A DNA stretch of 62,856 nt from Pancytospora philotis. Its lineage: Eukaryota > Microsporidia. The stretch is from contig JALRLY010000273.1 in NCBI GenBank assembly GCA_023647555.1, forward strand, positions 1 to 62,856, in the 5' to 3' direction. The notes below the pieces were generated by a model. The model was not told the DNA's origin. It ran no database searches and saw only the letters and a list, made by a program, of their open reading frames with translations. Positions 1 through 37,138 of this stretch are shown piece by piece (position 1 is the first letter of the stretch; each line of letters begins with the position of its first letter). Made by a program: the position numbers and the translations under genes.

Positions 1-720
1 TGGCTTTATCACAACGGCGTTTTGCGCGTGCTGTTGCAGCTCGCTGCGGATCTTGGTAGGCTGCATGAAGTAACATTTTTTATAGGCGCCGGGCTCAAAC
101 TGGACGAGAAATTTTGTGGGCACTTCGCCAGAGAGCTGGCAAGCATGCACTATGCCAGTGGAGATCCCTGGGCAGCTACTAATCGCACTGCGGATCGTCG
201 GCTGAAAGTGTACAATATCCTGCTAACTGGTTTCTGCTTCAAGCACCGGCTGCAGCTCCTGAGCCAAGCTGACACGATAGCCCCTGCGCTGCATCACCAC
301 TATAATCCTGGCAGCGCTCGCTATAGATCTCTCGAGGATATAATGAGATCGGCTCCCACTGACACCTTCAGAAACATGCCGCAGCTGCTCGTCTATCTGC
401 TGTACTTCTTTAAGAGCTGGCCGTTTCAGAACAGAGACAAGGACCTGCTAGTGCGGTTCTGCGAGCGCCTCGAATCCACGACCGTAGCCATTGTACTGTG
501 CTATGTAGGCATGGAGTTTAACCCGAACCACGCCCCAGTTTCTGTCCTGGCTGATTTTGTGGAGAGCATGGACGCAGCGAGCAAAATGAACCTGTTACAA
601 ACGATGCGACAAGGTGTTCCTCACGGCTTTCAGAATCTTAGTGATTCTCCTCTAACGCAGAGAATGCGCACCGTTCTCGCGTCACTTTTAGACATACTCG
701 AAAAGATACACAGACAATAA
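1..720 (+). CDS. secreted-family A protein, 3' part (5' cut by window edge)
   Basis: The frame is open from base 1 and stops at 718-720, so the N-terminus lies outside the window. The roughly 239 visible residues align end to end with the C-terminal halves of the two complete family A genes at 33865-35268 and 35496-36905. Shared blocks are WLY...L.QLA.DLG.L.EV, a CYKHR/CFKHR-like block, a LHHHYN block, MPQ/RLLVY.LY, LLVRF..RLE and VLCY.GME. The family is not one I recognise. The complete members begin with a signal peptide, so this one probably does too. AATAAA overlaps the stop codon. Confidence 0.75.
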   Translation, partial: WLYHNGVLRVLLQLAADLGRLHEVTFFIGAGLKLDEKFCGHFARELASMHYASGDPWAATNRTADRRLKVYNILLTGFCFKHRLQLLSQADTIAPALHHHYNPGSARYRSLEDIMRSAPTDTFRNMPQLLVYLLYFFKSWPFQNRDKDLLVRFCERLESTTVAIVLCYVGMEFNPNHAPVSVLADFVESMDAASKMNLLQTMRQGVPHGFQNLSDSPLTQRMRTVLASLLDILEKIHRQ

Positions 721-1221
721 AGTTGCTTTAAGGCTAGTTAGTGCAGATTACGCATTTTCAAACTTGAGGATGGATCTCGCGAACCGGGCGCGTCTTGCCC
801 GCTTCCGCCCTGCCGTTTCAGCCGTTTGACCTTCGAACAAGTACTCGCGTCGGATGCGGGGTTCAAGAAATGGGAAATACGATTCCTGTGGTCTGTCGTT
901 TGCGGGGCTCCGTAACCGCACCATCCATGCCATAACGTAAGGAGTGGTTGGGTTAATAAACCTGACTGCCCGCATAATAGCCTGTGTTTCCGGTGATTGC
1001 TCACCGCACATTTAATAATCCTGAGAGTGCGCTAATGGCGGTATTTTCGCATGCTCATGGGCTCTGCAAGGGCGGACAACCTAGTCCAGGAAACCAGACC
1101 AGGCATCTGGCCTGCAGTGTTAACAGGCATTATAGTGCCTTGCCGCGCGAAGGCCCAGCCGTGCCAGACAACCCCGGGAGCGCGCGGCGCCGCGTTAGTA
1201 ACTAAAATTTTTATCCGTCCT
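721..1221. other. intergenic region, no gene recognised
   Basis: GC-rich 500-base spacer. An open frame runs in from 1051, but I place the real start at 1222 because of the AAATTT box. No tRNA or other RNA gene was recognised. Confidence 0.4.
1204..1212 (+). promoter_or_regulatory. AAATTT-like start-proximal box
   Basis: AAAATTTTT ends 9 bases before the ATG at 1222 and decides that start over the upstream in-frame ATG at 1051. Confidence 0.65.
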
Positions 1222-2901
1222 ATGGAGGGAGAGTATGAGGTTGTGAACATATACAGGAACTACGAGGCGCAGCTGTCCTTCACGCTCGTGCTGCACGCTG
1301 CGGGGCTCGAGGAGATGCGCGTCGACAAGTCGCTGACGACGGCCGTCAGCCAGGGGCTGCTGTTCATAGGCGACACGATCCGGATCACGGCCAAAACAGC
1401 CGACGGGATCGTGTTTGATGTGCTGCCGCGCGCGGACGCGGCCGACAGGACCGACGACGGCGCGTACAGCGAGTCGCGCGCGAAGGAGGAGGACTCGCTG
1501 TTGTACGCCGAGAAGGGCGCGCGCAAGCACCGCTACCTGCCCTTCCTCTGCGACGTGCTGCCGTACCACGCGGCCGGCGCCGAGACCGCGGAGGCGAGCC
1601 CGGTCTACAAGGACGGGGTCTTCCAGGGGCGGTACCTGATCGAAGGCGCCGAGGTGACTAACATCAAGGCGCCGCTCCCGCCGCAGTTCGTGGCCAAGAT
1701 CCACCAGAAGACGCGGATCAACATGTACCCGAACAGCTACAATCCCTTCTTCTTCATCATCGTCGCGTCCAACAACGTGCTGCTCAAGATCGTGTTCTGG
1801 CGGGAGAGCCTGCGGCGGTACAGCAGCCTGCAGGTGGGCGACATCATATTCGTGAAGGAGTACAAGCCGAAGAAGAAGCTGCCGTTCATCGAGCGGATGG
1901 AGTACAACACGTTCACCGAGTCCGTGTACTTCGACTGCGAGGAGATCACCGCGCGCTCGATCCTGCGCGTGAATGCGTCGAAGAAGGGGAGCGTGCAGCG
2001 GCTCTTCGAGACCGTGGAGGGCACGGTGACGTACCTGAGCGTGCTGATGCGCGTGAGCTGCAACACAAGCATGATGGAGTACGTGCTCTGCCGCGTGGAC
2101 AACCGGAGCGTGGTGCTCTTCTACAACTCGGACGACGCCTTCTCGCAGATCCGCGACGGCTGCTCGATCCGCATCACCGAGCTGCGGCCGGTCACGCGCG
2201 CCGGCTTCGAGTGTTACATGAGCACGATCTACACGCAGTTCACGGTGCTCGACCAGCAGACCGCTGAGATCCGCGGGAGCATAGAGGAGGGCCATCTGGT
2301 CCCTTTTGACATCAACGACTCGTCCAGGAATGCGAGCGGGGCCGGCGCGATGAAGGAGAACGGCGCGGACACGCAGGAGCCCGTTATTGCGAAGCGGCCG
2401 CTGTCCCCGGAGCGCAGCGCCAACAAGCGGCGCTGTGTGAACTCCGTCTTCGGCGCCATCGGCTTCCTGCCCGACGACTTTGGCAGCACCGCTGAAATCC
2501 TGGAGTCGAGCAGCACCGAGATCATACACGGGCGCACCGTCTCCGTGAACTTGTCCATGAAGCCGCACATCACAACCATCGAGGACCTCCAGGGCCAGAC
2601 GCTGGTGCTGAACGAGACCAAGAAGTTCATCGTGCGCTCGATGCTCGCCGCCGCGGAGATCGACGGGATCTCGATAGACTATCTGGAGAACGGCGAGCCA
2701 AAGCAGCAGCACGGCGCCAAGCTCACGCTGGAGCGCGGCTTCACCTGCTACTGCTTTGAGAACTTCTTCGCGCCAGCGCTGGCGCGTCCGGCCCACGACT
2801 TCGATCTGCTCGTCGGCAAGCAGCTCTACTTTGTCCTCGAGTGCATACGCGCTGATATCGACACGGTGCTTTACTATGTCACCGGGATTATGAAAAGCTA
2901 G
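1222..2901 (+). CDS. OB-fold-like nucleic-acid-binding protein (RPA/RADX-like, tentative)
   Basis: 559 residues. The start is the ATG preceded by AAAATTTTT; 57 in-frame codons further upstream are probably not translated. Residues about 155-330 are beta-rich and include IVASNNVLLKIVFWRE followed by LQVGDIIFVKEYK. This resembles the strand pattern and the 'L..GD.I.V' turn of OB folds in RPA and RADX-type ssDNA-binding proteins. A second block with a similar pattern (VLCRVDNRSVVLFYNS, then IRDGCSIRITELRP) follows. A lysine/arginine-rich stretch (KRPLSPERSANKRR) could be a nuclear signal. The exact family is not certain; the OB-fold reading is an inference from pattern. Confidence 0.6.
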   Translation: MEGEYEVVNIYRNYEAQLSFTLVLHAAGLEEMRVDKSLTTAVSQGLLFIGDTIRITAKTADGIVFDVLPRADAADRTDDGAYSESRAKEEDSLLYAEKGARKHRYLPFLCDVLPYHAAGAETAEASPVYKDGVFQGRYLIEGAEVTNIKAPLPPQFVAKIHQKTRINMYPNSYNPFFFIIVASNNVLLKIVFWRESLRRYSSLQVGDIIFVKEYKPKKKLPFIERMEYNTFTESVYFDCEEITARSILRVNASKKGSVQRLFETVEGTVTYLSVLMRVSCNTSMMEYVLCRVDNRSVVLFYNSDDAFSQIRDGCSIRITELRPVTRAGFECYMSTIYTQFTVLDQQTAEIRGSIEEGHLVPFDINDSSRNASGAGAMKENGADTQEPVIAKRPLSPERSANKRRCVNSVFGAIGFLPDDFGSTAEILESSSTEIIHGRTVSVNLSMKPHITTIEDLQGQTLVLNETKKFIVRSMLAAAEIDGISIDYLENGEPKQQHGAKLTLERGFTCYCFENFFAPALARPAHDFDLLVGKQLYFVLECIRADIDTVLYYVTGIMKS

Positions 2902-3157
2902 CGGGCAAAGCTCAGCACCGCCGGGCCGGTCTGACCCGCTCGCAAACTAGCGCCAAAAGTAAATTTTACTGTACTCCCTGTATTTTTTGCGAGCTGCGCC
3001 CATAGCCAGTCTAATTTTCCGCTATCGCGCAGCGTATAAACGAGCGGCAAGTACTTATTTATTGCTGCGTGCTGTGATATACCTGCTGCCACGCAGTGCT
3101 CTGCACGAGCCCAAAATTTTGTCCGCACATGACGCCTGCAGGCCACATCAGGATTTG

Positions 3158-3165
3158 AAATTTTT
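3158..3165 (+). promoter_or_regulatory. AAATTT-like start-proximal box
   Basis: AAATTTTT lies 10 bases before the ATG at 3176. A second AAAATTTT stands at 3115-3122 upstream, so the motif is doubled here. Confidence 0.6.
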
Positions 3166-3175
3166 ACACCATCGG

Positions 3176-3604
3176 ATGGCCAGCACAAGCCCGCAGTACT
3201 ACCCCGCGCTGTTCAGCAAGTCAGAGACCGAGGAGGCCAAGCAGGAGACCGAGCACGTGATCCCGCAGACGACGCTCTACGACCAGCCGCTCGAGGCGCA
3301 CCACACGCCCTGCGAGCGCCACATCACCATCTTCGGCTTCTCGCCGCAGAATAAACTCAGCGTCCTGGCCGAGATCAAGCGGCTCGCGTCTGTCAGGAAA
3401 AAGGAGGAGGGCCGCAACTACGTCAGCGTGTGGGCGAAGGACCCCTCGGACCTGGAGCGCCTCATGAAGCTGAACCACCAGGTCATCGGCGGCGAGATCA
3501 TCGGGGTGTTCCGGCGCAACTTCGGCGCCGTGCAGAGCGCCGACATTTACATGAAGAAGAAGAGCGTGCTCACCGTCATCAAGGAGTACTTCTTCGGTGA
3601 ATAA
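3176..3604 (+). CDS. Nup53/Nup35-type nucleoporin (MPPN RRM domain)
   Basis: 142 residues. After a short N-terminus, residues about 47-115 (RHITIFGFSPQNKLSVLAEI onward, then VSVWAKDPSDLERLMKLN and IGGEIIGVFRRN) match the atypical RRM of the Nup35/Nup53 family. There the first strand reads 'W/HVTVFGFPP' and the domain ends with 'I.G..I.GV'. This domain dimerises in the nuclear pore inner ring. The protein is much shorter than yeast Nup53 (475 residues), keeping little beyond the RRM and a short basic tail, as expected of a reduced parasite. The open frame extends upstream to 2987, but the AAATTT box supports the start at 3176. Confidence 0.7.
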   Translation: MASTSPQYYPALFSKSETEEAKQETEHVIPQTTLYDQPLEAHHTPCERHITIFGFSPQNKLSVLAEIKRLASVRKKEEGRNYVSVWAKDPSDLERLMKLNHQVIGGEIIGVFRRNFGAVQSADIYMKKKSVLTVIKEYFFGE

Positions 3605-4769
3605 GTGCGCATACCGCGGCCAGTAAAGTTATTCATATGCGTGTTCGGCCTATGCGGCAGCGTGAAGGCAAAGTCTGTTCTTGCAAGATCGCGTGGGCCT
3701 ATCTTCCCTGCTATGGTCTTGGCCATTCTGGGTTTTATGTGCCACCGGGCCAAATGGCTCGTGTGGACGCACTTTCATTTGCATGGCTCGGTTGCTATGG
3801 GGTGCAGTGCATTTGTTGCTGTTGGCGCTGTGCTTAATTGCTGATCACCAATATGCCAATATTTCGTGCTTGAAAGCTAAATCACTCCTCAGCGCTTGCA
3901 AAGGTGCTTTACGTAGACTTCTGTATTTATTTCGCTCAATATGCTCGTGTGAAATACCCAGAGCGATGGGCCGCATGCTAAGATAGCCGCGGCAGGCGCA
4001 CGTGTGCTTTACGAGCATTCCGCAGCTCATCATATTCTTATGCGCAATTATCTCCCAAAATGAGCAGCTAGATTGCGTATTGCAGGCTAGAGGTCTATAC
4101 TTAGTCACCGCGATCTCAAACGGCGGCACAATAAATGACTCACCGCTGCGTCACTGCACACAAATAAAAGCTAAAACGGCGCGTAATCGCTCCAATCACA
4201 CAACGCGCGCGCAGAGCTATAGACGAACAGCTCCCTGAATGCTGCCTATAGCAGTCTATGAGTAGTGCACAACCCGGTGGCTGTAGCTTCATAGGTATTC
4301 GAAATGACATTGTAGACCATATACGCACCGTACACGAGCTTGTAGCCGTGCTTGCTCCAATAGTCATGTTGTTTGTTGTGTTTAATATACTCGGTCAGCC
4401 GGCGTAAATGAACGACGCGCCGCAAATCGCGTGCGGCGCGATAAAAACGTTCTAGAACACCAATCGATCAAATCATGCAAACTTGAGCGCGCCTTTGCGC
4501 TCATTGCTGGTCTGGCCTCTCATTTGATCAGACTGGCACGCGCATGTGGTTTTCGACGTGCGGTCATAAGTCCGGCGACAGTTGCCGCGCAAGTCAAAGT
4601 AGAGTAAAAATTGCAAAAATTTTATAGACACGCGGCGCCGCCCGTCAAGGCGCCCGTCGCGCCACGCCGGTCTGATGTTTGCATGCATGCGCATTTATTG
4701 ATACCGCGGTGTATCACAATGTTTAATATACATTAAATCATCAATTTAAAAAATATTTCCAGCCCATAT
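3605..4769. other. long intergenic region, no gene recognised
   Basis: About 1.16 kb. It holds only short unconvincing frames (for example 3605-3844). An AAAAATTTT run at about 4614-4622 is not followed by a usable ORF on either strand. No RNA gene was identified. Confidence 0.4.
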
Positions 4770-5465
4770 ATGAAGAAGATTAACGGATACATTAACAGCT
4801 ACGACGAGGCGCTGCTGGTTGTGCATGCGGCCAGGCTCGGCGCGCTGGAGGTCACGAAGGAGCGGCTGAACATCGACGCGCGCGAGCGCATCGAGAGCGG
4901 CAACATATTCTGCTTCATCGAGAACTCGAGCGGGATGAAGCGCTGGACGGACGGGCGCATCTGGTCGCCCTCGAAGATATGCGGCGAGTTCCTGATCTAC
5001 CAGGAGGTGCCGCGCCATCTCAGCAAGAACTCGCTGAAGAAACAAAAGGAGATCGACAAGGTGTACGAAAAGGAGGCGGGCAGCATGCGGCGCGGAGCGC
5101 GCGACGAGACGATCGACCGCACGACGATGCACAAGAAGACCGTGTGCATCAAGCACGAGAACAAGACATACCACATCGTGGCGTACTACAGGCCCGTATT
5201 CGCGACGGTTTTCCTGCTCGACATAAAGTACTTCAAGAAGCTCGAGGCCGCGCTGACCGTGTACCCCGAGCTCAGGAGCGACGAGACGCTCGAGCGCGAG
5301 ATGGCGGACGGCGACGCGTTCTTCGAGCGGTACAACCTCGACCGCGACGTCGTGCGCCCGGCGCTGGACCCCAGCAAGCGCGACGTGCTGGAGAAGATCG
5401 CGGTCGACGTTCTGACATCACTCAGCAAGAGCTCGCCCAAGCGGTATAGACACATAATATTCTAG
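4770..5465 (+). CDS. WOPR-family (Gti1/Pac2/Wor1-like) transcription regulator
   Basis: 231 residues. Residues 5-80 carry the first half of the WOPR DNA-binding fold: GYINSYDEALLVVHAARLG, then RIESGNIFCFIENSSGMKRW, TDGRIWSPSKICGEFLIYQE. The fungal signature 'SGM(K/R)RWTDGR.WSPS+..G.FLIY.E' is intact. The second half (KKTVCIKHENKTYHIVAYY) follows after a lysine-rich linker. WOPR proteins such as Candida Wor1, Ryp1 and Gti1 are sequence-specific regulators of morphogenesis and virulence. Here the protein is almost only the domain. The ATG follows an AT-rich leader with a weak AAATATTT-like box. Function in this organism is inferred from the family. Confidence 0.87.
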   Translation: MKKINGYINSYDEALLVVHAARLGALEVTKERLNIDARERIESGNIFCFIENSSGMKRWTDGRIWSPSKICGEFLIYQEVPRHLSKNSLKKQKEIDKVYEKEAGSMRRGARDETIDRTTMHKKTVCIKHENKTYHIVAYYRPVFATVFLLDIKYFKKLEAALTVYPELRSDETLEREMADGDAFFERYNLDRDVVRPALDPSKRDVLEKIAVDVLTSLSKSSPKRYRHIIF

Positions 5466-7390
5466 ACAACAAATAAATAGATCCACAAGCATTTAATCTT
5501 CGTGCGCCTGCACCGGCGGTATTTGTATTTTCAGGCGACTGCCTGAATGAGATATCCGATTCGCGGCCTCTCTAGATCCAATCCATGCCGCGTCGTGCTC
5601 GATACTGCGGTTAGTGCATGTATACAGCGCTGCTTAGCTGCTGATATCGAGTGCTGCCGCCACGTATATTTTGCATTTTGACGCGGGCAATAAAATAGAA
5701 ATGCGCGCGTTTTGACGCACTTAATTGCAGCATACTATGACAGGAAGAATTGATCAGGCAGGTGCACGTGCCAGAGAGTCTGCATACAAGCTGACCCACA
5801 CAGCAGCCGCTCTGACAAGCGCTGCGGCCAGTCCATTATACTATCTAAAAGACTGATATGCTACGATCCTTTCGAACGTGTCGCATCGGACACTTTGTAA
5901 AGAACTAGCCAATAAGCCATTATAAAATGAGCTAGAGCAGTGCTGCTACTTTAATGCTGTGATATTCACACCTCTCCCCCGCAAAAATATTGAAGGCTTT
6001 GCAAGCATTCATTTTTGCTTACATGCATCCAGGTAAATGCGCAAGCTACTTATTGAAAATATTTTGAATACGGGGTCTGCTACCAAGGCTGTAGCTTCTA
6101 GCGCGTAAATCATGCGTCAAACTAGATGCAATGCCGCATACCTCAAGCCAATGACAATTTTATAAATACTCAAAATATACTCTAATATTCATGTTTATTA
6201 AAATATAATGTGTACCCATTATACCTGGCTAAATTGATCAGACAATGATACTCTCCTTCTTCTCCTTTTATAAGTTTCCTGATTTTACACGTGTCTAAAT
6301 TGCCTCACGCCTGCCGGCACGCCTAATGCAGATCGTTCAGTAAGCTAGCGGGCCGTGCGCCCGAAAACGCTCCATAGCAGCATGCATGCATGCAGATGCA
6401 GGGGCGGCGGTGCGCTTCGCAGCACACGAACGCCCCTAAAACCGCGCGGCGCGCCGGCCCGAGAATACCGGATGGTCCTGAAAATAGGCGTATAAACACG
6501 TCAGAGCTACTTCCTGAGATATTGGCATCTGATGCTGGCCCGTGACACTTAATGCCCGCATTCGCCTGCCATACGCACCTACACACTGTGCAGCACGTGG
6601 TTAGCCCAGTGCTCTAGTCTAGCTCGCTGGTCAAGAGAAGGGAAGGAATACTGGCTGGGGGTTCGCGCACGTTACAGCAGCGTGAGATTTGGAGTGCGCG
6701 CCGCTTAATGCAATGAATCCGGTGCAGCGTTGCATCGCGCCTCCAGCCGATCAGCACAGTCGTGATGCGGTGATGGGCTCTTGATGAAGCCCCGTATTTT
6801 ACGCCGCACGGATCCAGCTTTGAGTGCACAGAGCCGCGTAGGCTGGCACACGGGCGTAAAAAGCCAATTACGAGTACAATCTCTGCCGTGAAGCATCACG
6901 CTGCCGCGCTGAACTGGCCGCGCCCGCTCTTGTAGGATCACTCTCCGTCTTTGATGACGTCTTTCATCAATCCAATCATCGAGCCCCTAATAAATCTGGA
7001 TGTGCAAACGCGTGCTTTGATCAGCTTGCGATGGGACAGCGGGCATGCGCGGGGTCCGTCGCAGCTCTAAAAGCCGTGGGCGTGCGAATCCAACCGCGCG
7101 CCCAGTCCTCGCATACGCTATCAGCCCGAGCTGGCCGCGGTGCCGGTGACGCGCGCTCCAGACCAGCTGCGGGCGCACGCTGCGATACCGCCGCAAATGG
7201 CGGAGCCGCGCTGCGTCCCTGTGACTAATAAAATCTTGACCCAATAAAAGTCTTTGTGTGGGCCTCAATATCCGGGAGTCATTTTTTAATTTAATGATTG
7301 GGATCACCATCAGCCGATTCGCATTGTCTCGAATAATTGCGCGTGCAGCACAGTTCTATTGGCTTTATTAAAAAACACAATCGGTAAGCC
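5466..7390. other. 1.9-kb gene desert with AT-rich and GC-rich halves
   Basis: The first part (to about 6290) is AT-rich with no credible frame. The second (about 6290-7250) turns GC-rich and has only short arginine-rich frames typical of composition. No AAATTT box with a downstream ORF, and no recognisable RNA gene. Confidence 0.4.
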
Positions 7391-8131
7391 ATGCTTATCC
7401 GAACGCAGGAGAAGAGAACGGCCGGCTTGAAAAAAGAGCGCGGCGCAAGCATGCTGTGGGATCGCGAAGCAGCGCGGCGCGGGCATGCGGGCAGGAAAGC
7501 ACTAAGCCCGATGAGCGCCGCATTGTCCAGCGGCGGGTATTATAGCTGGCCGCAGCGGGCCTGCGCACACGGTGCGTTCTGCTGCGCGAGGGAGCTGGCG
7601 GGCTTCGGGGCCTCAGACTGCGCGACCGTAGGCACGGCCTCTGGTACGCTTGGCCGCAATGAGTATCCGCAGCGCGCCGGGCCGCGCGGGATGGAGGAGC
7701 TGGTCTTTGCGACGGTGCTGCTGGACCTCATGGACAAGAGCCTTCTGCACCGCTCCGTGCTGCGTGTTGCGCGGCGCTTTTGCACGTTTCTGCCCTGCAC
7801 GCTGATCTGCGCGTACATCTACTTGCGGCAGTACGTCTCGCGCATCGGGCAGCGCTTCACGAGCGTCGAGGAGCTCTCGAAGATGTACCTCGTGTGCTGC
7901 GTCCTCGCCACGAAGTACGGCGCCGACGCGCAGGTCCTGAACACGGAGGCTGCACAGAAGTGGGGGCTGCCCCTCGGGGAGCTCAACTACCTAGAGGCGC
8001 TCATGATCAACGCCCTGAACTACAACCTGCGGATTTCCGACGAGGAGTACAGAGCTTGTTACAAGAACATCCAGAATAATCGATGTATTACCTACAGCAC
8101 CGTGGCACATCATATTAATAAACGCATATAG
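7391..8131 (+). CDS. cyclin, Pho80/PCL type
   Basis: Up to 246 residues. The cyclin box occupies the C-terminal half: LPCTLICAYIYLRQYVSR, then VEELSKMYLVCCVLATKYGAD, and LGELNYLEALMINALNYNL. This is the Pho80/PCL pattern, in which a short cyclin fold binds a Pho85-like CDK. The first 100 residues are low in recognisable structure, so the true start may be the ATG at 7691 (MEELVFATVLLDL), giving 146 residues. The upstream ATG at 7391 is kept because the frame is open and GC-rich like coding DNA. No clear AAATTT box precedes either start. Confidence 0.7.
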   Translation: MLIRTQEKRTAGLKKERGASMLWDREAARRGHAGRKALSPMSAALSSGGYYSWPQRACAHGAFCCARELAGFGASDCATVGTASGTLGRNEYPQRAGPRGMEELVFATVLLDLMDKSLLHRSVLRVARRFCTFLPCTLICAYIYLRQYVSRIGQRFTSVEELSKMYLVCCVLATKYGADAQVLNTEAAQKWGLPLGELNYLEALMINALNYNLRISDEEYRACYKNIQNNRCITYSTVAHHINKRI

Positions 8132-11589: not shown

Positions 11590-11880
11590 GGAGGCGGTCT
11601 CGCCGTACCATAATTACCAGCAAAAAATCTGCAGTGCATTGGATGAAGCATAGAATTGTGTCTGTCCGCCTTGATTACTCCTAGTTATTCTGTTTGTACT
11701 GTTGAATAGAGGCATCACCTCGTAGACACAAAGCAGATTGTTGCCGGCGACGAATTCGAGCGTGGTAATCAATACAGAATAAAAATCATGAAGAATTTAA
11801 CAATAGAGCGCTCCTGATATTAGCCAGCGCACCGCATGCCTGCTCAAGGCCTATTGCAGGCAAATTTCCTACTTGGTCGG

Positions 11881-12624
11881 CTATATGTCCCCGATCATGT
11901 TGGTCGCGTAGCCCCAGTATGCCAGGCTCATCGCGCAGCCCATCAGGGACGCAAAAAGGAGGGGAATGATGGTGATCTGGCCCAGCCTGAGCCTGTACTC
12001 GCTGAACAGCAGCATGCTCCTGATTGAGCCTATGATGACGCCCAGATAAATGCTGCATATCACCGCAATCACGGAGAGAAGCAGCTTGTTCTTTCTGAGG
12101 AAGGAGTGCGCATTGCTGCGGAGCCTGAACGCCACAAAGAACTCGACAGCGAAGACGCCTACAACGAAGTAGAGGGCATGGATGAGGCTGGCGAGCAGCA
12201 CCACGCATCCGGGCTCGTAGATCCGGAACATATCGTGGAACGCGTGCAGCCTGAGCTCGAAGTAGTAGCTCTTCAGGATGCCAAGCTTGTTGAGGAAATC
12301 CAGCGCGCACAGGAAAAACAGCGCGATCGTCGAGTACACGTAGATCTTCGATATGCTCACGAAGCTGCTGCGCGTCGACTTGTAGTTGCTGAATATGTAC
12401 CGCTTGAACCCGATGATGGTGGCCGTGACGGCTACTGTGGGGAGCACGGCCAGCAAAACAACAAGCGTGGCGAGCGCGCCCAGCGGGGTGATCTTGAAGC
12501 CCGCCAGCAGGGACAGCAGCTGCGCAGGCCCGCTGAGCATGCGCAGCTCTGGGGCGACGAGCGCGAGTATCCCCACGCCAGCAAGCAGCAGCTTCAGGAA
12601 CAACTTGGCGAGCATAGTCCGCAT
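11881..12624 (-). CDS. multi-spanning membrane protein, family not recognised
   Basis: About 247 residues from the ATG at 12624, but the frame stays open into the assembly gap at 12670-12719, so the N-terminus is uncertain. About six hydrophobic helices are visible (for example LALVAPELRM region, ALATLVVLLAVLPTVAVTAT, YSTIALFFLCALDF, VVLLASLIHALYFVVGVFAV, LLLSVIAVICSIYLGVIIGS, IIPLLFASLMGCAMSLAYW). Short basic loops alternate with them. No catalytic or transporter motif was recognised. The stop lies 256 bases before Rrp7's start-side neighbour and both genes run on the minus strand. Confidence 0.65.
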   Translation of the reverse strand: MRTMLAKLFLKLLLAGVGILALVAPELRMLSGPAQLLSLLAGFKITPLGALATLVVLLAVLPTVAVTATIIGFKRYIFSNYKSTRSSFVSISKIYVYSTIALFFLCALDFLNKLGILKSYYFELRLHAFHDMFRIYEPGCVVLLASLIHALYFVVGVFAVEFFVAFRLRSNAHSFLRKNKLLLSVIAVICSIYLGVIIGSIRSMLLFSEYRLRLGQITIIPLLFASLMGCAMSLAYWGYATNMIGDI

Positions 12625-12669
12625 GGGGTCTGCGGGGCAAGCAAATACCAACAGGAAGGCTGGCAGGGA

Positions 12670-12719
12670 NNNNNNNNNNNNNNNNNNNNNNNNNNNNNNN
12701 NNNNNNNNNNNNNNNNNNN
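12670..12719. other. assembly gap (50 N)
   Basis: Exactly 50 N, a conventional placeholder. True length and content are unknown, and it may hide the 5' end of the membrane-protein gene. Confidence 0.97.
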
Positions 12720-12781
12720 TACAGATCGTCAGACGCGCTGCTAACGGTGAGCATGCGCACAAGCAAACCGCATCGTATGGA

Positions 12782-23624: not shown

Positions 23625-25025
23625 TTACTTAGTCAGTACACTGCATCGATCAATATGATGCACTGCAGCCTCGTGTGCGACAGCAGCTCTCTGAGTTCTA
23701 TCTTTTTCGTGTTCTACGCGCATAGCCTCCCACACCGCATACGCAGCGAATCGGTACGTTCTGATGTACTCTATCAGCTTTTGGTCATTGTTCGTTTGGG
23801 CGATATCTAACACTTCGACGCTGGTCCCAATTGGCAGCTCGGCGAGGAAGATGCAGATGTACTCATATGGAGCATTCCTGGGAGCGGATAGCAGCTTGCA
23901 GTGGTCGAGCATTTTGCATACGGGCCCTGAAAGCAGCGAATAGACCAGGGAGCTGTCCGCAAATGTGATTTCAAGCCGCTCTCTTCCGTGCAGCGCATTG
24001 CTGAAGAACCCCTCCAGCGCCGACGCAAGCAGCGACAGCTCCGGCCAGTCGTAGATGTTCAAATAATGATTCATATAGTTTGTTACGAAGTAGGGGCTGA
24101 TCTTCTTGCTATCGCTAGTCGCTACGTACCGGAAGATTTCCTCTATGCCCGCGACGAAAAAGTTCGAGATGCTGAGGCAGCTGTGGAAGACAGTGCCTTT
24201 GATGCTCACGATATTTTCGAGCGTGATGCTTCTGAATATTCTGCTCCCGTACTTCTGTATGAGCTTTGCCTTGTCGAGCACTGATTTGGCAAAGTTTAGT
24301 GGGAAGGGGCTGTTGCTGTGCACCAGGTTTTCCCTTTCTATAAGATACACCAGAATCTGGCTGTATAGGGCATGCAGGGCCGGGGCGTTGGCGCCGCCCT
24401 TTCTGAGCATGTAAAGGAATAAATCGCCGGGGCTGTGCCTTTCTGGCGCGTTCGCAATATACGTGCTGAAATCCTGCATCTCAATCAGGCTGAACTCGCG
24501 CAACAAAAAGTTTCTTATCAGCTCGTATGGGCTATCGATGTTGACATCGATGCGCGTTTTGACGAGCTTAGAGGCAGTATTAAGTAGGGGCTCGAGACAG
24601 AGTCCGCGCCTTGTGGCATTCAAGCTGCAGAAAAGCTCGCCCAGCGCCTCGAGCGTTCCATGTCCGTGCCCATTTACCAGACTGGTGACGATACTCAGTG
24701 GATTAGGATGGTTCAGAATGGTCAGCTGAATGAACCGCTGTTTGAAACCAGCTGGCCGGTATTTAGTCTTAGGGTACCTCATCGGGCTTTCCAGTCGTTC
24801 TGCAGGCGGCAGCTTATCATTCAGTTCCTCGCAGTGCTCGTACAATGTTTTCTTGGTGCGCTTTAACTCGTAGAACGCAGATGTGTACATTTTGTGCAGG
24901 CTCTGGTGAATTTGCTCGCCAGGTTTATCAGGAGAAAACGCGCTATCACTTGCCTGCGCAGTGGCACAGCCTGATCTGAGCGGCGATAACATGAACATAT
25001 AGCTCCACAACTGCCTACCTCGCAT
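23625..25025 (-). CDS. secreted-family A' protein, copy 1
   Basis: 466 residues. It starts at the ATG after AAAAATTTGCCCTGCTG. The first 25 residues (RGRQLWSYMFMLSPLRSGCA then TAQA) look like a signal peptide. The remainder is helical and has no recognised domain. It is the intact partner of a tandem pair: the gene at 25429-26742 matches it over the whole length. Conserved blocks are RLESP.R, FKQRFIQLTIL-like, TLEALGE.FCS.NA.RRGLC, SDSKKISPYFV.NYM, NALHGRERLE.T.ADSSLVYS and ELPIGTSVEVLDIA. More GC-poor than the core genes. A distant relative lies at 60124. Function unknown; a host-facing role is an inference. Confidence 0.7.
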   Translation of the reverse strand: MRGRQLWSYMFMLSPLRSGCATAQASDSAFSPDKPGEQIHQSLHKMYTSAFYELKRTKKTLYEHCEELNDKLPPAERLESPMRYPKTKYRPAGFKQRFIQLTILNHPNPLSIVTSLVNGHGHGTLEALGELFCSLNATRRGLCLEPLLNTASKLVKTRIDVNIDSPYELIRNFLLREFSLIEMQDFSTYIANAPERHSPGDLFLYMLRKGGANAPALHALYSQILVYLIERENLVHSNSPFPLNFAKSVLDKAKLIQKYGSRIFRSITLENIVSIKGTVFHSCLSISNFFVAGIEEIFRYVATSDSKKISPYFVTNYMNHYLNIYDWPELSLLASALEGFFSNALHGRERLEITFADSSLVYSLLSGPVCKMLDHCKLLSAPRNAPYEYICIFLAELPIGTSVEVLDIAQTNNDQKLIEYIRTYRFAAYAVWEAMRVEHEKDRTQRAAVAHEAAVHHIDRCSVLTK

Positions 25026-25428: not shown

Positions 25429-26742
25429 TCATACGTGCATGGCCTCCCACACCACGTATGCGGCAAAGCGATAAAATTTGATATACGCCATCAGCTTTCT
25501 GTCCTTCTTCGTTAAGGCGATATCTAACACCTCGACGCTGGTCCCAATCGGCAGCTCCGCAATGAAAGTGTATATGTACATAGGAAGTGCATCCATGGAT
25601 GCGGACAAGAGACTGCGGTTGTCGAGCATTCTGCAGATCGGCCCGGACATCAGCGAATAAACCAGAGAGCTGTCTGCATGCGTGACTTCGAGCCGCTCTC
25701 TGCCGTGTAGCGCATTGCTGTAGTACCCTTTAAGCGCAGCCGCAAGCAGCGGCAGCTCATGCCAGCTATAGATACCCAAATAATGGTCCATATAGTTGGC
25801 CACAAAGTACGGACTGATCTTTTTGCTATCGCTGCTCGCGATGTACCGGAAGATCTCGTCTGCACTCGCTATGAAGAAAGTCGTGATGCTGAGATAACCA
25901 TGCAGGACGGGGCCTCTGATGCTTACGATGTTTTCGAGCGTGATTCTTCTGAATATTCGGCTCCCAAATCTCTCCATGAGTTTTGGCTTTTCGAGCAGTG
26001 ATCTAACAAAGCCTAGCGAGACGAGGTCGCCGCTTTCTATTAGTATTTCCTCCTCTATAAGATATTCCAGTATCTGGTCGTACAAGCCATGCAGGACCGG
26101 GGCGCGAGCGCTGCTTTTTCTGAGCATGTAGAGAAAAAAATCGTCGGGGTTGTGCCTTTGCGGCAGGTTCGCAATAAACGCGCTGAAATCCCGCGTCACG
26201 ACTAAGCCGATTTCACGCAATAGATAGCTGCGTATCAGCTCATACGGGCCATCGACGTTAATATTTATGCGCATCCTAACGAGCTCAGAAGCGCTGTCCA
26301 GCGTAGAATCAGCGCAGAGCCCGCGCCTGGCAGCATTTGCGCTGCAGAAAAACTCGCCCAGCGCCTCGAGTGTTCCATAGCCGCGCTCATTTACCAGCCT
26401 GGTAATGAAACCCAGCGGATCAGAATGGCTCAGTATGGTCAATTGGATGAACCGCTGTTTGGAACCGAGTTGCTGGCCTTTAACTTTCGCAAACCGTTTC
26501 GGGCTTTCCAGTCGCTCTATAGGCGGCCGCAGCGCATTTATTTCCACGCAATGTTCGTACAACGCATCTTTGGGATGCGAAAGCTCCCTGAACTTGCGCA
26601 TGTAAATTTTCGGCAGGCTCTGGTAGCCTTGCCCATCAGATTTAACAGAAACGGACGAGCTATCGTTTGTCTGCATTGTAGCACAGCCCGATCTGACCTG
26701 CGATAATGCAAACAGGTAGCACCACAACTGCCTGCCCCGCAT
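25429..26742 (-). CDS. secreted-family A' protein, copy 2 (C-terminally truncated)
   Basis: 437 residues, tandem paralogue of the gene at 23625-25025, by eye a little over half identical. It has the same putative signal peptide (MRGRQLWCYLFALSQVRSGC). It ends at TGA just after VWEAMHV, where copy 1 continues for 29 more residues (from VWEAMRVEHEKD). The missing coding sequence is still recognisable downstream in another frame, so the truncation is a recent loss. Whether the product works is unknown. The conserved blocks listed for copy 1 are all present. Confidence 0.68.
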   Translation of the reverse strand: MRGRQLWCYLFALSQVRSGCATMQTNDSSSVSVKSDGQGYQSLPKIYMRKFRELSHPKDALYEHCVEINALRPPIERLESPKRFAKVKGQQLGSKQRFIQLTILSHSDPLGFITRLVNERGYGTLEALGEFFCSANAARRGLCADSTLDSASELVRMRININVDGPYELIRSYLLREIGLVVTRDFSAFIANLPQRHNPDDFFLYMLRKSSARAPVLHGLYDQILEYLIEEEILIESGDLVSLGFVRSLLEKPKLMERFGSRIFRRITLENIVSIRGPVLHGYLSITTFFIASADEIFRYIASSDSKKISPYFVANYMDHYLGIYSWHELPLLAAALKGYYSNALHGRERLEVTHADSSLVYSLMSGPICRMLDNRSLLSASMDALPMYIYTFIAELPIGTSVEVLDIALTKKDRKLMAYIKFYRFAAYVVWEAMHV

Positions 26743-33074: not shown

Positions 33075-33692
33075 TTATTTGTGTCCGAGGCCGCCCATCA
33101 TGGTCTTCAGCATGTCGGCGAGCTCCTCCGGCGACTTGTCCTTGACGAAGTTCTTAACGGCGTCCTGCACCGCGGGGTTCCCCACGAGCTGCTCGAAATC
33201 GGGCAATCCAGAGGCCGGCGCCGGCGCGCCGGTCTGCGCAGCCAGATCCTTCAGATGCTGGTTGCTCGGATCGCGCTCCAGGCCCTGCAAGAAGTAGTCG
33301 TGCGCCTTCTCGCTGTCGGTCTTCATGTAGAACAGGCCGATGCGGATGTAGAACTTGATGAACGACGGGTCCACCCTGAGTCCGGCCAGGCAGGCCTCTA
33401 TGCCCTCCTCGTCCTTCCCGAGCTTCGAGCAGACCAGCGCCTTGTTCGAGTACACGGGCGCGTTGAGAGGGTCCGCCGCAATCGCCTCGCCGTAGAGCTC
33501 GAGCGCCTTCTCGAGATCGCCGCTCTTGTACGCCTCGTTGCCGCGCTCCTTGATCTCCTCCGACCGCTGCCGCGCGGCCGGGCTCTCCTTGCTCTCCAGC
33601 GCTCCGAGCACGGACATGACCTTCTGGTAGTCTTCCGCGGGCAGATGCACCCTGCGGGCCTCGAAGAACGTCCTCACGCTGCTGTAGTCCAT
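33075..33692 (-). CDS. SGT2: Sgt2/SGTA-like TPR co-chaperone
   Basis: 205 residues. Three TPR repeats fill about 43-150: SEEIKERGNEAYKSGDLEKA, PLNAPVYSNKALVCSKLGKD then EEGIEACLAGLRVDPSF, and KFYIRIGLFYMKTDSEKAHD. The C-terminal part (PDFEQLVGNPAVQDAVKNFV, ELADMLKTMMGG) is the helical, methionine-containing substrate domain. Sgt2 hands tail-anchored proteins to the GET pathway and binds Hsp70/Hsp90. The N-terminal dimerisation domain is shortened (yeast Sgt2 has 346 residues). A likely client type, the tail-anchored SNARE Use1, is encoded at 45748. Confidence 0.87.
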   Translation of the reverse strand: MDYSSVRTFFEARRVHLPAEDYQKVMSVLGALESKESPAARQRSEEIKERGNEAYKSGDLEKALELYGEAIAADPLNAPVYSNKALVCSKLGKDEEGIEACLAGLRVDPSFIKFYIRIGLFYMKTDSEKAHDYFLQGLERDPSNQHLKDLAAQTGAPAPASGLPDFEQLVGNPAVQDAVKNFVKDKSPEELADMLKTMMGGLGHK

Positions 33693-33864: not shown

Positions 33865-35268
33865 TTAACGCCGGCGTATTTTCTTGAGTATTTTCTTGAG
33901 TAGCCTAAGCATCTTGAACATTGCCGGGGTCCAGATGACCACACGAGAACTTACACAAACTTCAGAGAAATTCTCGTGTCTCACCTCCTCCAATAGTTGC
34001 TGTCTACTCATAGAGTCCATACTCTTAACAAATTCTGTTAGGAATTCTGTTCGGTGGTCCGTACGATCGTACTCCATGCCTGCGTAGCACAACACAGAGG
34101 CCAAAAACTTGGTTCTAATGCACACGGAAAAACGCACAAGCAGATGCTTATCACTGTACTGGGACTGCCGCAATTTTAGGAAGTACAGCAGGTAGAGGAG
34201 CTGCTGCGGCATATCTTTGAAGGTATCGGCCTGCGCAGACCTCATTAAATCATCGAGAGACGTATACGGTGCGCTGTTATGATTATAATGGTAATGCAGT
34301 GCGCAGGCCACCGCATCAGCCCGGCTCAGCAGCTGCTTCCGGTGTTTATAACAGAATTCAGATAGTATTGTGTTATATTCCCACCGAATAGCAGAATCAC
34401 TAAGAAAATCCATCAGTTGAACCCCATTGGCACTCACCACGCCAGCCAACGCTTGGACCAGACGCGCACAGAAGTCTGCATCTTGTGCATACCTCTCGTC
34501 TCTAAGGAATGCCACCTCTGGCAGCTTACCAAGATCCACAGCAAGCTGGAACATCTCGGGCAAGACGGCGCGGGAGTAGAGCCACTCTCTCAAGTTCATA
34601 TGGTAGAGCGTGACTGCCACATCCTCGATTAGTATGTACTTGGCACGCCTATCGATGTTCAGTGATAATAGAGTTTGCCATATAGCATCGAAATCAGCCC
34701 TGGCATTCTTTTCAACTCTCTCCCAGCCATGCCTCAAACACATAATAGCCATGCAAGCAGGCACGTTGAATTTTCCCGCACTAGTGTACTTAGAATAGTC
34801 CATGCCCCTAATAAGCTCCGGGATCTCGTTGACAAAGAGTTTGAATGCACAGAAGCGCTTGCCCGGCGCATTTTCCAGCTCATTGTCTATCCTTAGGTAG
34901 AACTTGTACAAAATGAGCAAATCCGTGGGTGACTCCCGGTAGTACGTTAGCAGCGAAATCCCGAGCCAATCGTAGCGGAAAAGGAGATCGTCGACGAGCC
35001 GCCGCGCAACCCTCAAATCTGACCAGTCATACGCCTTGATGGCAGTGACGAGGCTCTCTTCGTAGACTGCTGGCGGCAGACTACTAAGAAAACGCACGAA
35101 TACGGGCTTGACGTACACGGCCTCGTCCGGAAGAAAGGGGTAAGCGGGGCTGAACCAGCGGTATGCGTGCATCTCCCCCGCATTATCTATACCGGCAGCT
35201 CGCGCACCATTTTCGGGAGCAAATGCAGCGCGGAGCGGGGCTGCGCACAGGAAACCTGCCCACAGCAT
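33865..35268 (-). CDS. secreted-family A protein, member 1 (complete)
   Basis: 467 residues. A signal peptide is evident (MLWAGFLCAAPLRAAFA). Mature-part landmarks shared with the next gene are YRWFSPAYPFLPDE, DWSD..VA+R.VD.LLF.YD, MDYSKYTS, EWLYS..VLP..FQLAVDLGKLPEV, CYKHRKQLLS, LHYHYN and VLCYAGMEY. The protein looks helical, possibly repeat-like, with no catalytic motif recognised. It ends in a basic helix (RLLKKILKKIRRR). The three members in this window (this one, 35496-36905 and the partial one at 1-720) suggest a larger family in the genome. A role at the host interface is plausible but not shown. Composition is more AT-rich than core genes. Confidence 0.75.
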   Translation of the reverse strand: MLWAGFLCAAPLRAAFAPENGARAAGIDNAGEMHAYRWFSPAYPFLPDEAVYVKPVFVRFLSSLPPAVYEESLVTAIKAYDWSDLRVARRLVDDLLFRYDWLGISLLTYYRESPTDLLILYKFYLRIDNELENAPGKRFCAFKLFVNEIPELIRGMDYSKYTSAGKFNVPACMAIMCLRHGWERVEKNARADFDAIWQTLLSLNIDRRAKYILIEDVAVTLYHMNLREWLYSRAVLPEMFQLAVDLGKLPEVAFLRDERYAQDADFCARLVQALAGVVSANGVQLMDFLSDSAIRWEYNTILSEFCYKHRKQLLSRADAVACALHYHYNHNSAPYTSLDDLMRSAQADTFKDMPQQLLYLLYFLKLRQSQYSDKHLLVRFSVCIRTKFLASVLCYAGMEYDRTDHRTEFLTEFVKSMDSMSRQQLLEEVRHENFSEVCVSSRVVIWTPAMFKMLRLLKKILKKIRRR

Positions 35269-35272
35269 GGAT

Positions 35273-35281
35273 AAAAATTTT
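35273..35281 (-). promoter_or_regulatory. family A promoter box
   Basis: AAAATTTTT on the minus strand, ATCC, then ATG. Upstream, TTTGTAATAA and AAGACG are shared with member 2 (36906-36940). Confidence 0.65.
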
Positions 35282-35495
35282 CAACGTCTTTTGTTATTAC
35301 AAATGAAAAGCATTGCACCAGGGCAGACAACTCTCCCTTGGGAGGCTCGTATGTATTTTTATCGATACCCGTGTCTGAAGTCTAACAGAGGGCCCGGCCG
35401 AGAATTCCAAAATGGCCCGGGCCGCAGATTTGATAAACATATCGTCTTCGTTGGTACATTGGTCCATAGTAAAAATATAAGTAAACGCAATTATT

Positions 35496-36905
35496 TTATT
35501 GCTGGGGCAGACCCTCGAGTACATTTTTGAGCACCGCAAGAATATTACGCATCACCTGAGGGGTGAAGGCTCCAGAGATTTCTGCAGTAGTGTGAGGGAA
35601 ACTACCCTGTATCTTGTCCAATAGCTCCTTTTTAATAGATGGGCTTATACCCTCCACAAATTTAGTCAGCACATGTATTCTGCGATCATTTTTGGCCTCC
35701 TCCTTACCTGCGTAGCACAGTACGGCGATCAAAATCTCGTGCTCGAGGCGCTCGGAAAAACGCACGAGCAGATCTTTATCGATGCTCTGAAGCGGGCGGC
35801 TTATAAAGTAGTACAGCACGTAAACGAGCCGCAGCGGCATTTCTTTGTATGTAGAGGCAGCCGCGCTCATTACGCTAGTCAGAATTGTACAGTGAACGTA
35901 GCCTGGATTAAAATGGTGATGCAATGCGCCGGCTACTTCACCAGCCTCGCTTGCAAGCTGCTTACGGTACTTGTAGCAGAAGTCACACAGCACTGCATAG
36001 TATTCGGAGCGAGCTCTGTTATCACAATGAGCATCCGTCAGTTGAACGCCGTTGAAAGTGTGAATGCCCGCCAATGCTTTGACGAGTTGCACACAAAACT
36101 CTCTTTCCTCCACGAACTCCTTAGCATACCTCGTGTCTTTAAAGAACGTCACCTCTGACAGCTTACCGAGATCTACTGCAAGCTGAAACAGCTTGGGCAG
36201 GACTTCGTTAGAATAAAGCCACTCGTCCAAGTCCAGAAAGTGGGCTATAACTGCCAAATGCTCGATCAACACGTACTGCGCTTGCTTGTCGGTGTCCAGG
36301 GATACGAGCTTATTCCATATAGTATCCAGTTTAGTTGCGGAATAGGACTTCACTTTCCCCCAGGCGATCGTCACAGTCAGGATAGTTTTGCGGGCAAAAT
36401 AGTGAGACGGCTCCTCGCTGGTGTATTTAGTGTAATCCATACGCTTGATATCCTCCAAAAACTCATCGACTTCCGATTTAAAAGCACGGAAGCGCTCGCC
36501 AGATGCATTTCCTAGCACATTCTGCGTCCTCGAATAGAACTTGAACACGGCAAGCATAAATGTGGGGGCCCTGCGGCACGTGGCTATGAAAGAATCCGCA
36601 AGCCCGTCGTACTGGAAAAGGAGGCCGTCGACGCGCTTCCGCGCATCGTTCATGTCCGACCAATCACACTCCCTGATAGCCGCGATAAGGCTTTCGTCGT
36701 AGTTTCCAACTAGCTGTGTATTGATGAAATCCACAAACAGATCCTTGAGACACTTAACTTCGCGCGGAAGAAAGGGCGTATTGGGGCTGAACCACCGGTT
36801 TATGGGCAGCTGTTTATCGTAGCTTATGCCTGTAGCTGACACATCGTTCGCGGGAGCGACTGCAGCACTAAGAAGAGCTGCGTACGAAAATACCGTTGCG
36901 AACAT
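35496..36905 (-). CDS. secreted-family A protein, member 2 (complete)
   Basis: 469 residues. Signal peptide MFATVFSYAALLSAAVA. It is collinear with member 1 and adjacent to it in tandem (228-base spacer): NRWFSPNTPFLPREV, CDWSDMNDARKRVDGLLFQY, MDYTKYTS, EWLYSNEVLPKLFQLAVDLG, CYKYRKQLAS, LHHHFNPGY and VLCYAGKEE. Identity by eye is about one third, so the duplication is old or divergence is fast. It lacks the basic C-terminal tail of member 1. No domain or function recognised. Confidence 0.75.
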   Translation of the reverse strand: MFATVFSYAALLSAAVAPANDVSATGISYDKQLPINRWFSPNTPFLPREVKCLKDLFVDFINTQLVGNYDESLIAAIRECDWSDMNDARKRVDGLLFQYDGLADSFIATCRRAPTFMLAVFKFYSRTQNVLGNASGERFRAFKSEVDEFLEDIKRMDYTKYTSEEPSHYFARKTILTVTIAWGKVKSYSATKLDTIWNKLVSLDTDKQAQYVLIEHLAVIAHFLDLDEWLYSNEVLPKLFQLAVDLGKLSEVTFFKDTRYAKEFVEEREFCVQLVKALAGIHTFNGVQLTDAHCDNRARSEYYAVLCDFCYKYRKQLASEAGEVAGALHHHFNPGYVHCTILTSVMSAAASTYKEMPLRLVYVLYYFISRPLQSIDKDLLVRFSERLEHEILIAVLCYAGKEEAKNDRRIHVLTKFVEGISPSIKKELLDKIQGSFPHTTAEISGAFTPQVMRNILAVLKNVLEGLPQQ

Positions 36906-36910
36906 GGGTT

Positions 36911-36945
36911 AAATTTTGCAGCGTCTTAAATTATTACAAATAAAG
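36911..36945 (-). promoter_or_regulatory. family A promoter region
   Basis: On the minus strand TTTGTAATAATTTAAGAC, GCTGCAAAATTTAACCC, then ATG. It matches the region upstream of member 1 and the orphan copy at 39533-39575. Confidence 0.62.
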
Positions 36946-37138
36946 GGGTATCACTTTATAGATAAAGGGGCTATATCATATGCAGTCAGACTCATCTTGT
37001 AGGCGATTTAAATATACTCTCCCCATGTAACGGAGGCTTATCTTCATGTGATCGCGTGCTTTGCCAGAATTCGCTGTCTCCTACAACTTTTGTGCCAGTT
37101 GCATTGAGGAGACATAAAAAAGCGGCATTGGGTGTACT

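Follow-up and report, generated by a model that had tools for sequence, protein, structure and literature searches.

Three related genes in the window

The stretch of Pancytospora philotis DNA analysed here, called the window, comprises positions 1 to 62,856 of contig JALRLY010000273.1 (assembly GCA_023647555.1), referred to below as C38. It covers the first half of this contig of 124,509 bp, which belongs to an assembly of 3.68 Mb in 83 contigs, and GC content was 52–58% in the seven blocks of 8 kb that were measured. Within the window we found three members of a multigene family with secretion-type N-termini, here named family A:

33865..35268, minus strand: family A gene 1, encoding 467 amino acids, with a hydrophobic N-terminus and a helical model.
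35496..36905, minus strand: family A gene 2, encoding 469 amino acids, 44% identical to gene 1 and in tandem with it, with 227 bp between the two.
1..720, plus strand: 3′ part of a third member, encoding 239 amino acids, open at the window start and truncated by the contig end.

An earlier note on this DNA, made from its letters and open reading frames (ORFs) alone, had described two complete tandem members of about 468 residues and one partial member at 1–720, and the frames that we found agree with this in number, arrangement and length. Since base 1 of the contig is also the first base of the window, the N-terminus and upstream region of the third member lie outside it. The ordered blocks which had been named as common to these genes could also be located: RWFSP..PFLP, MDY.KYTS and EWLY are present in both complete genes and LLVRF in all three, with WLY standing at the very start of the 1–720 piece and the VLCYAG.E block reading VLCYVGME there. 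With gene 1 as query, gene 2 was matched at E = 1.5e-114 and the 1–720 piece, which is 43% identical to gene 1, at E = 2.0e-49; chance as the source of the likeness between the three is therefore excluded.

In a maximum-likelihood tree the 1–720 piece clustered with a full-length gene on contig C66 (support 97/98). A 5′ piece of the family lies at C66:1-363(-), and its orientation and that of the 3′ piece at C38:1-720(+) match one gene split by a gap, so that these two pieces may be a single gene divided at an assembly gap.

Family A in the assembly

The family proved larger than the three copies from which it had been recognised. In its own assembly it comprises 13 full-length genes (two on C38, six on C13 and one each on C66, C75, C8, C6 and C33), the two contig-end pieces on C38 and C66, and two remote members on C58 and C10, amounting to 17 places on nine contigs, and these copy counts are lower bounds. 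Gene 1 as query gave 15 matches in 14 genes (itself included) at E ≤ 1.6e-5. A query with a divergent member added one gene on C13, a second divergent query added none and a third added C58 (E = 8.7e-7) together with a weak match on C10 (E = 0.009). Both remote members were confirmed by a 13-row profile (C58 and C10: E = 6.9e-12 and 3.8e-21), and no additional family gene was found when they were themselves used as queries against the assembly.

Identity to gene 1 was 40% for the full-length C66 gene and 18–23% for the other ten full-length genes besides gene 2. The maximum-likelihood tree, built from 15 rows, contained three clades with 100/100 support: C38/C66 (four rows), C13/C33 (three rows) and C6/C13 (five rows). 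Those on C8, C75 and C58 fell outside these clades, the C58 member on a long branch whose placement is unsure. Copies are tandem or clustered in several places, with pairs on C38, on C66 and twice on C13, and close relatives often lie side by side, which is what tandem duplication with later dispersal would produce. Rapid divergence had also been proposed for these genes; this holds in the sense of low identity between paralogues and no further, as a rate needs orthologues.

Searches for known domains and outside relatives

All 13 full-length members were scanned against Pfam and no family was found at E ≤ 0.05. Five families were listed at E up to 1, with the best scores for KIX (E = 0.054) and HEAT_Ints3_C (E = 0.092), each in one member of the 13; DUF1609/InterB, LRR, ricin-B, serpin, peptidase and kinase domains were not among the five. 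Against PDB sequences the best match to family A had an E value of only 0.73. In a database of 5.8 billion proteins, where searches were word-based and at most 7,995 candidates were scored in each, a single sequence and the 13-row profile both returned only the two window genes. A control search under a like candidate limit, using the DUF5088 protein encoded in the window, retrieved microsporidian relatives from the same database (38 non-self relatives, found down to 28% identity). As microsporidian proteins of such low identity could be found in this way, family A is probably restricted to its lineage, at the depth of a word-based search. It should be noted that the other family A members of this assembly were also not returned, and the assembly therefore seems not to be wholly in that database.

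The view that these proteins belong to no recognised family was thus borne out, since the Pfam, PDB-sequence and protein-database searches gave no outside relative. Of the two outcomes that the earlier note had named as contrary to its proposal, neither was seen: there was no match to a housekeeping profile, nor were further copies and a secretion signal lacking.

A prokaryotic or viral origin was also considered and set aside: a search with a three-row alignment gave 71 pattern matches each in genome_contigs and viral_contigs, of which tblastn confirmed 0, and absence from the prokaryotic, viral and PDB match lists in itself excludes nothing.

Predicted structure and conserved core

The models of the gene 1 and gene 2 proteins are helical, solenoid-like and rich in hairpins (predicted local distance difference test, pLDDT, ~68). 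Neither model had a match among PDB structures at E ≤ 0.001, and none of the 292 matches listed for the gene 2 model against viral proteins reached this threshold; the lists of weak structural matches were filled by karyopherin, catenin, PP2A-scaffold and similar chains. HEAT/ARM alpha-solenoids such as karyopherins, the PP2A scaffold and beta-catenin have helical, hairpin-rich models in common with family A. However, the Pfam scan gave no profile match to them, HEAT_Ints3_C in one member of 13 being the best score, and no structural match rose above noise. A secretion-type N-terminus, as is present in family A, is not known from these HEAT/ARM alpha-solenoid proteins.

Identical residues were found in at least 9 of the 13 rows at 69 alignment columns, 60 of which are hydrophobic. 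We read these columns as a kept scaffold with no evident catalytic site. That the family consists of diverged enzymes or chaperones whose helical fold escapes sequence methods is in our judgement quite improbable. The copies could also be decaying duplicates, that is a burst of copies without function, and the short C10 member (288 amino acids from its likely start) may indeed be degraded. Against this, no row of the family matches contains an internal stop despite identities of ~18–49%, which requires lasting constraint, and hydrophobic residues make up most of the conserved columns, as they would in a core that is kept. Decay is therefore the explanation to which we give hardly any weight.

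Hydrophobic N-termini and third-position GC

A hydrophobic stretch near the start was found in all 16 visible N-termini, with 11-residue hydropathy peaks of 1.75–2.83, in line with the secretion-type N-termini that had been noticed at first reading. Secretion was judged here by hydropathy as a proxy, and the N-termini of the C66, C75, C58 and C10 members were scored from a start chosen downstream. Several members have an A-X-A-like site after the hydrophobic stretch (by eye), and past residue 35 the 19-residue mean hydropathy was ≤ 1.73 in all family members. In 11 core genes the N-terminal peak ranged from −0.05 to 1.41 and none of the 11 reached 1.75.

GC content at third codon positions (GC3) was 0.52–0.72 in the 13 full-length family A genes, unlike the 11 core genes (0.81–0.96), and was 0.44–0.71 in 16 neighbouring genes of secreted-looking type that were selected by eye. 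The core genes are those with firm Pfam matches among 17 scanned non-family proteins and were chosen after the comparison with 65 other ORFs, given below, had been seen; the six omitted proteins had GC3 of 0.76–0.91 and N-terminal peaks of 0.05–1.05, except the DUF5088 gene with a peak of 2.17 (start uncertain). GC3 separates core genes (n = 11) from secreted-looking genes (n = 29, family A included) without overlap and could be used as a gene classifier in the genome of this GC-rich microsporidian. By composition, family A seems to belong to a separate set of secreted genes specific to the lineage.

The proteins could instead belong to the secretory pathway and serve the structure or development of the parasite itself, in the spore wall, polar tube or lumen of the endoplasmic reticulum (ER), and not be host-facing effectors. 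The hydrophobic N-termini, present in 16 of 16, would serve that route equally. On the other hand, no KDEL-type ER signal was found among the 16 C-terminal ends examined, and the family occupies 17 divergent places, has no relative that was found elsewhere and has other tandem secreted-looking families close by. So many divergent copies with no outside relative found, near tandem secreted-looking families, are unusual for core structural proteins. We regard the structural role as somewhat unlikely.

Other secreted-looking families near family A

A second tandem pair lies in the window at 23625-25025(-) and 25429-26742(-), encoding proteins of 466 and 437 amino acids which are 63% identical and have a possible weak signal peptide. 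The first gene of this pair had no Pfam match, and its family had 17 assembly matches at E ≤ 0.001; by profile, no relation to family A was found. Two of these matches, C39:74977-75663 and C39:117184-117870, have identical scores and identity, and a recent large duplication or an assembly repeat is possible. On C66 there is an array of five tandem secreted-looking genes of about 310 amino acids each (C66:10001-18297, local 1896-7478(-)), in which the other four genes are 33–37% identical to the first, with no other assembly match at E 0.001. Paired and mostly secreted-looking families also lie beside family A copies at locus L014 (4919-6241(-)/6633-7949(-)), L015 (1528-2547(+)/4929-5951(+)) and L016 (5887-6771(-)/6978-7907(-)). 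Their arrangement suggests that secreted genes specific to the lineage form islands among the core genes.

A common origin of family A and these neighbours was examined and rejected: the family profile against 15 nearby secreted-looking proteins gave a best E of 0.07 (L011:5546), and a common superfamily was likewise not indicated by hhalign, which gave probabilities ≤ 0.5% for the nine of these 15 proteins that were compared.

Upstream regions

The earlier note had proposed a promoter shared by the family. The following elements lie upstream of the two complete genes:

35273..35281, minus strand: AAAATTTTT, general start signal (AAATTT-like) of gene 1, also found at other window genes.
35285..35303, minus strand: TTTGTAATAA..AAGACG upstream of gene 1, with exact likeness only to gene 2.
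36911..36917, minus strand: AAAATTT, general start signal (AAATTT-like) of gene 2, then CCC-ATG.
36922..36940, minus strand: TTTGTAATAA..AAGACG upstream of gene 2, with two exact matches in the assembly.
36941..36948, minus strand: CCCCTTTA, upstream element enriched in the family.

The likeness of the upstream regions was confirmed for the tandem pair, as TTTGTAATAA..AAGACG, AAAATTT and CCATG occur at both complete genes, and did not hold as a mark of the family. TTTGTAATAA followed by AAGACG at a spacing of 2–8 occurs exactly twice in the assembly, at genes 1 and 2, with a degenerate likeness (by eye) at the two C66 genes, and this likeness is best taken as a mark of a common ancestor. In Encephalitozoon cuniculi, according to PMC2803860 (2009), a CCC-like motif directly precedes the ATG at most genes, ribosomal genes and those with high expression have an AAATTT-like signal farther upstream, and ribosomal-gene start signals are common to several microsporidia. 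Within the window, the AAATTT-like/CCC signal also precedes RPC1, the TPR gene and further genes, and we take the AAAATTT and CC(C)ATG of the family to be the general microsporidian start signal. A family-specific promoter as it was put was therefore rejected, the AAATTT/CCC signal being phylum-wide and the TTTGTAATAA/AAGACG likeness being exact nowhere but in genes 1 and 2.

We also compared the regions upstream of 16 family starts with those of 66 control ORFs of at least 200 amino acids, a set that also contains secreted genes, spurious frames and misplaced starts. An AAATTT-like signal at 3–30 bp was present in 10/16 family members vs 26/66 controls (P = 0.16), its broader form at 3–25 bp in 12/16 vs 24/66 (P = 0.0099), CC adjoining the ATG in 14/16 vs 25/66 (P = 0.0005) and TTTGTAATAA in 2/16 vs 0/66. 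The general start signal is thus commoner in the family than in these controls. The CCCCTTTA-like element (C[CT]CCTT at −20 to −65), a pattern chosen after looking, was found in 7/16 family members and 0/66 controls. For unbiased words at −20 to −70 the best 6-mer was CCCCTT (family 5/16 vs controls 0/66; P = 0.006, 500 label shuffles) and the best 5-mer had P = 0.024; for the 30 bases nearest the start, P was 0.022 with 6-mers and 0.078 with 5-mers. These P values are flattering because paralogues are not independent, and the enrichment of the CCCCTTTA-like element can be explained equally by shared descent or by shared control.

Neighbouring genes and identity of the organism

The copies in the window sit among core genes, as had been stated: a TPR gene (33075-33692) lies on one side of the tandem pair and sybindin-like and Per1-like genes on the other. 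The closest relative of the window's DUF5088 protein was an unnamed protein (57% identity); among named relatives Pancytospora epiphaga was best (51%), followed by Vittaforma corneae (42%) and then Nucleospora and Ecytonucleospora. These relatives point to a place for the organism on the Pancytospora/Vittaforma side, and the two genera are grouped in Enterocytozoonida in PMC10393165 (2023). Two matches to the nucleotide-transporter family PF03219 in the assembly would fit a microsporidian identity. Nucleotide transporters of the PF03219 type are a microsporidian mark. The small-subunit ribosomal RNA model RF02542 had no match in the assembly, and the same model also matches 9 of 14 prokaryote control genomes.

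The ORF of the DUF5088 gene, at window 1051-2901(+), encodes 616 amino acids, and since the database copy is shorter (559 amino acids) the true start probably lies downstream of the ORF start. The ORF at window 11786-12754(-) contains a run of unknown residues, corresponding to a stretch of N in the window.

Comparison with known families and proposed role

Microsporidian large gene families of putative host-exposed proteins are defined in PMC5423893 (2017) by a minimum of 10 homologues within a species and by secretion signals, and 59 of 68 such families were clade- or species-specific; PMC10393165 uses the definition as well and reports 39 large gene families from 13 species that infect nematodes, Pancytospora and Enteropsectra among them. 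Family A has 13 full-length genes, 15 members with the contig-end pieces and 17 places with the remote members, and no non-self protein was found by single sequence or 13-row profile in the word-based search. It thus resembles these families in having at least 10 members, secretion-type N-termini (by proxy) and a range of one clade as far as searched, and is a real, apparently lineage-restricted large gene family of the host-exposed type. The Nematocida large families differ in that host exposure was shown by tagging, whereas for family A it is proposed from the genes. Family A has about 15 members, compared with at least 100 in each of the five largest families described in PMC10393165.

According to the same paper, NemLGF1, PanLGF1 and EbrLGF1 (of Nematocida, Pancytospora and Enteropsectra) are likewise large families with signal peptides or transmembrane segments, and some of these families belong to relatives of this organism. 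NemLGF1 is described there as having three domains with a helical C-terminal bundle, whereas the family A models are helical along almost their whole length, and of the four largest modelled families besides NemLGF1 only NemLGF2 (LRR) is said to resemble solved proteins. These three families were compared by description; P. epiphaga is represented in the protein database by at least one protein, and the family A searches returned none from that species. Among the papers listed in the literature searches, none dealt with a secreted alpha-solenoid family in microsporidia.

Our preferred interpretation, which we consider probable, is that family A is a lineage-restricted family of secreted helical-solenoid proteins, exported to act on the host side as diversifying binding scaffolds. 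The product of each gene, about 470 residues long, would consist of a signal peptide and an extended body of helical hairpins, resembling an alpha-solenoid, and would enter the parasite ER and leave by the secretory route during growth in the host cell. In the host cell or at the parasite surface it would act as a binding scaffold, and with the hydrophobic core kept while the surface drifts, tandem and dispersed copies would together offer host proteins a range of different surfaces. From export onwards, that is for actual secretion, host contact, protein binding and selection for diversity, these are steps that we infer, as is the host exposure of family A proteins in general.

Several points weigh against this interpretation. 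Hydropathy cannot separate secretion from ER residence, and the N-terminal peak of gene 1 is the weakest of the family (1.75). A peak of 1.9 is reached by 16 of 65 other ORFs, 14 of which are in the secreted-looking set, a label that itself rests partly on the same hydrophobic N-terminus. The GC3 of the family is no different from that of all 65 other ORFs (P = 0.12), which include other secreted-looking genes and probably spurious frames. Model confidence is middling (predicted template modelling score, pTM, 0.55), with models built from three rows. With such models and no structural match that stands out, 'alpha-solenoid' is best used as the name of a class and not of an identified fold.

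A bolder version, in which family A is a new type of effector, a secreted alpha-solenoid whose copies carry a dedicated CCCCTTTA-like element and present different surfaces to host proteins, is in our view unlikely. If it were true, it would be a parasite-made repertoire of solenoid binders which arose within one microsporidian lineage.

For other such families, claims of a shared promoter should first be compared with the general AAATTT/CCC start signal of the phylum. Family A provides a coherent list of candidates for studies of host contact. With it, a lineage close to Pancytospora and to Vittaforma, which infects humans, gains a secreted-looking family of some size, a further example of the variable secreted families that microsporidia probably use on their hosts.
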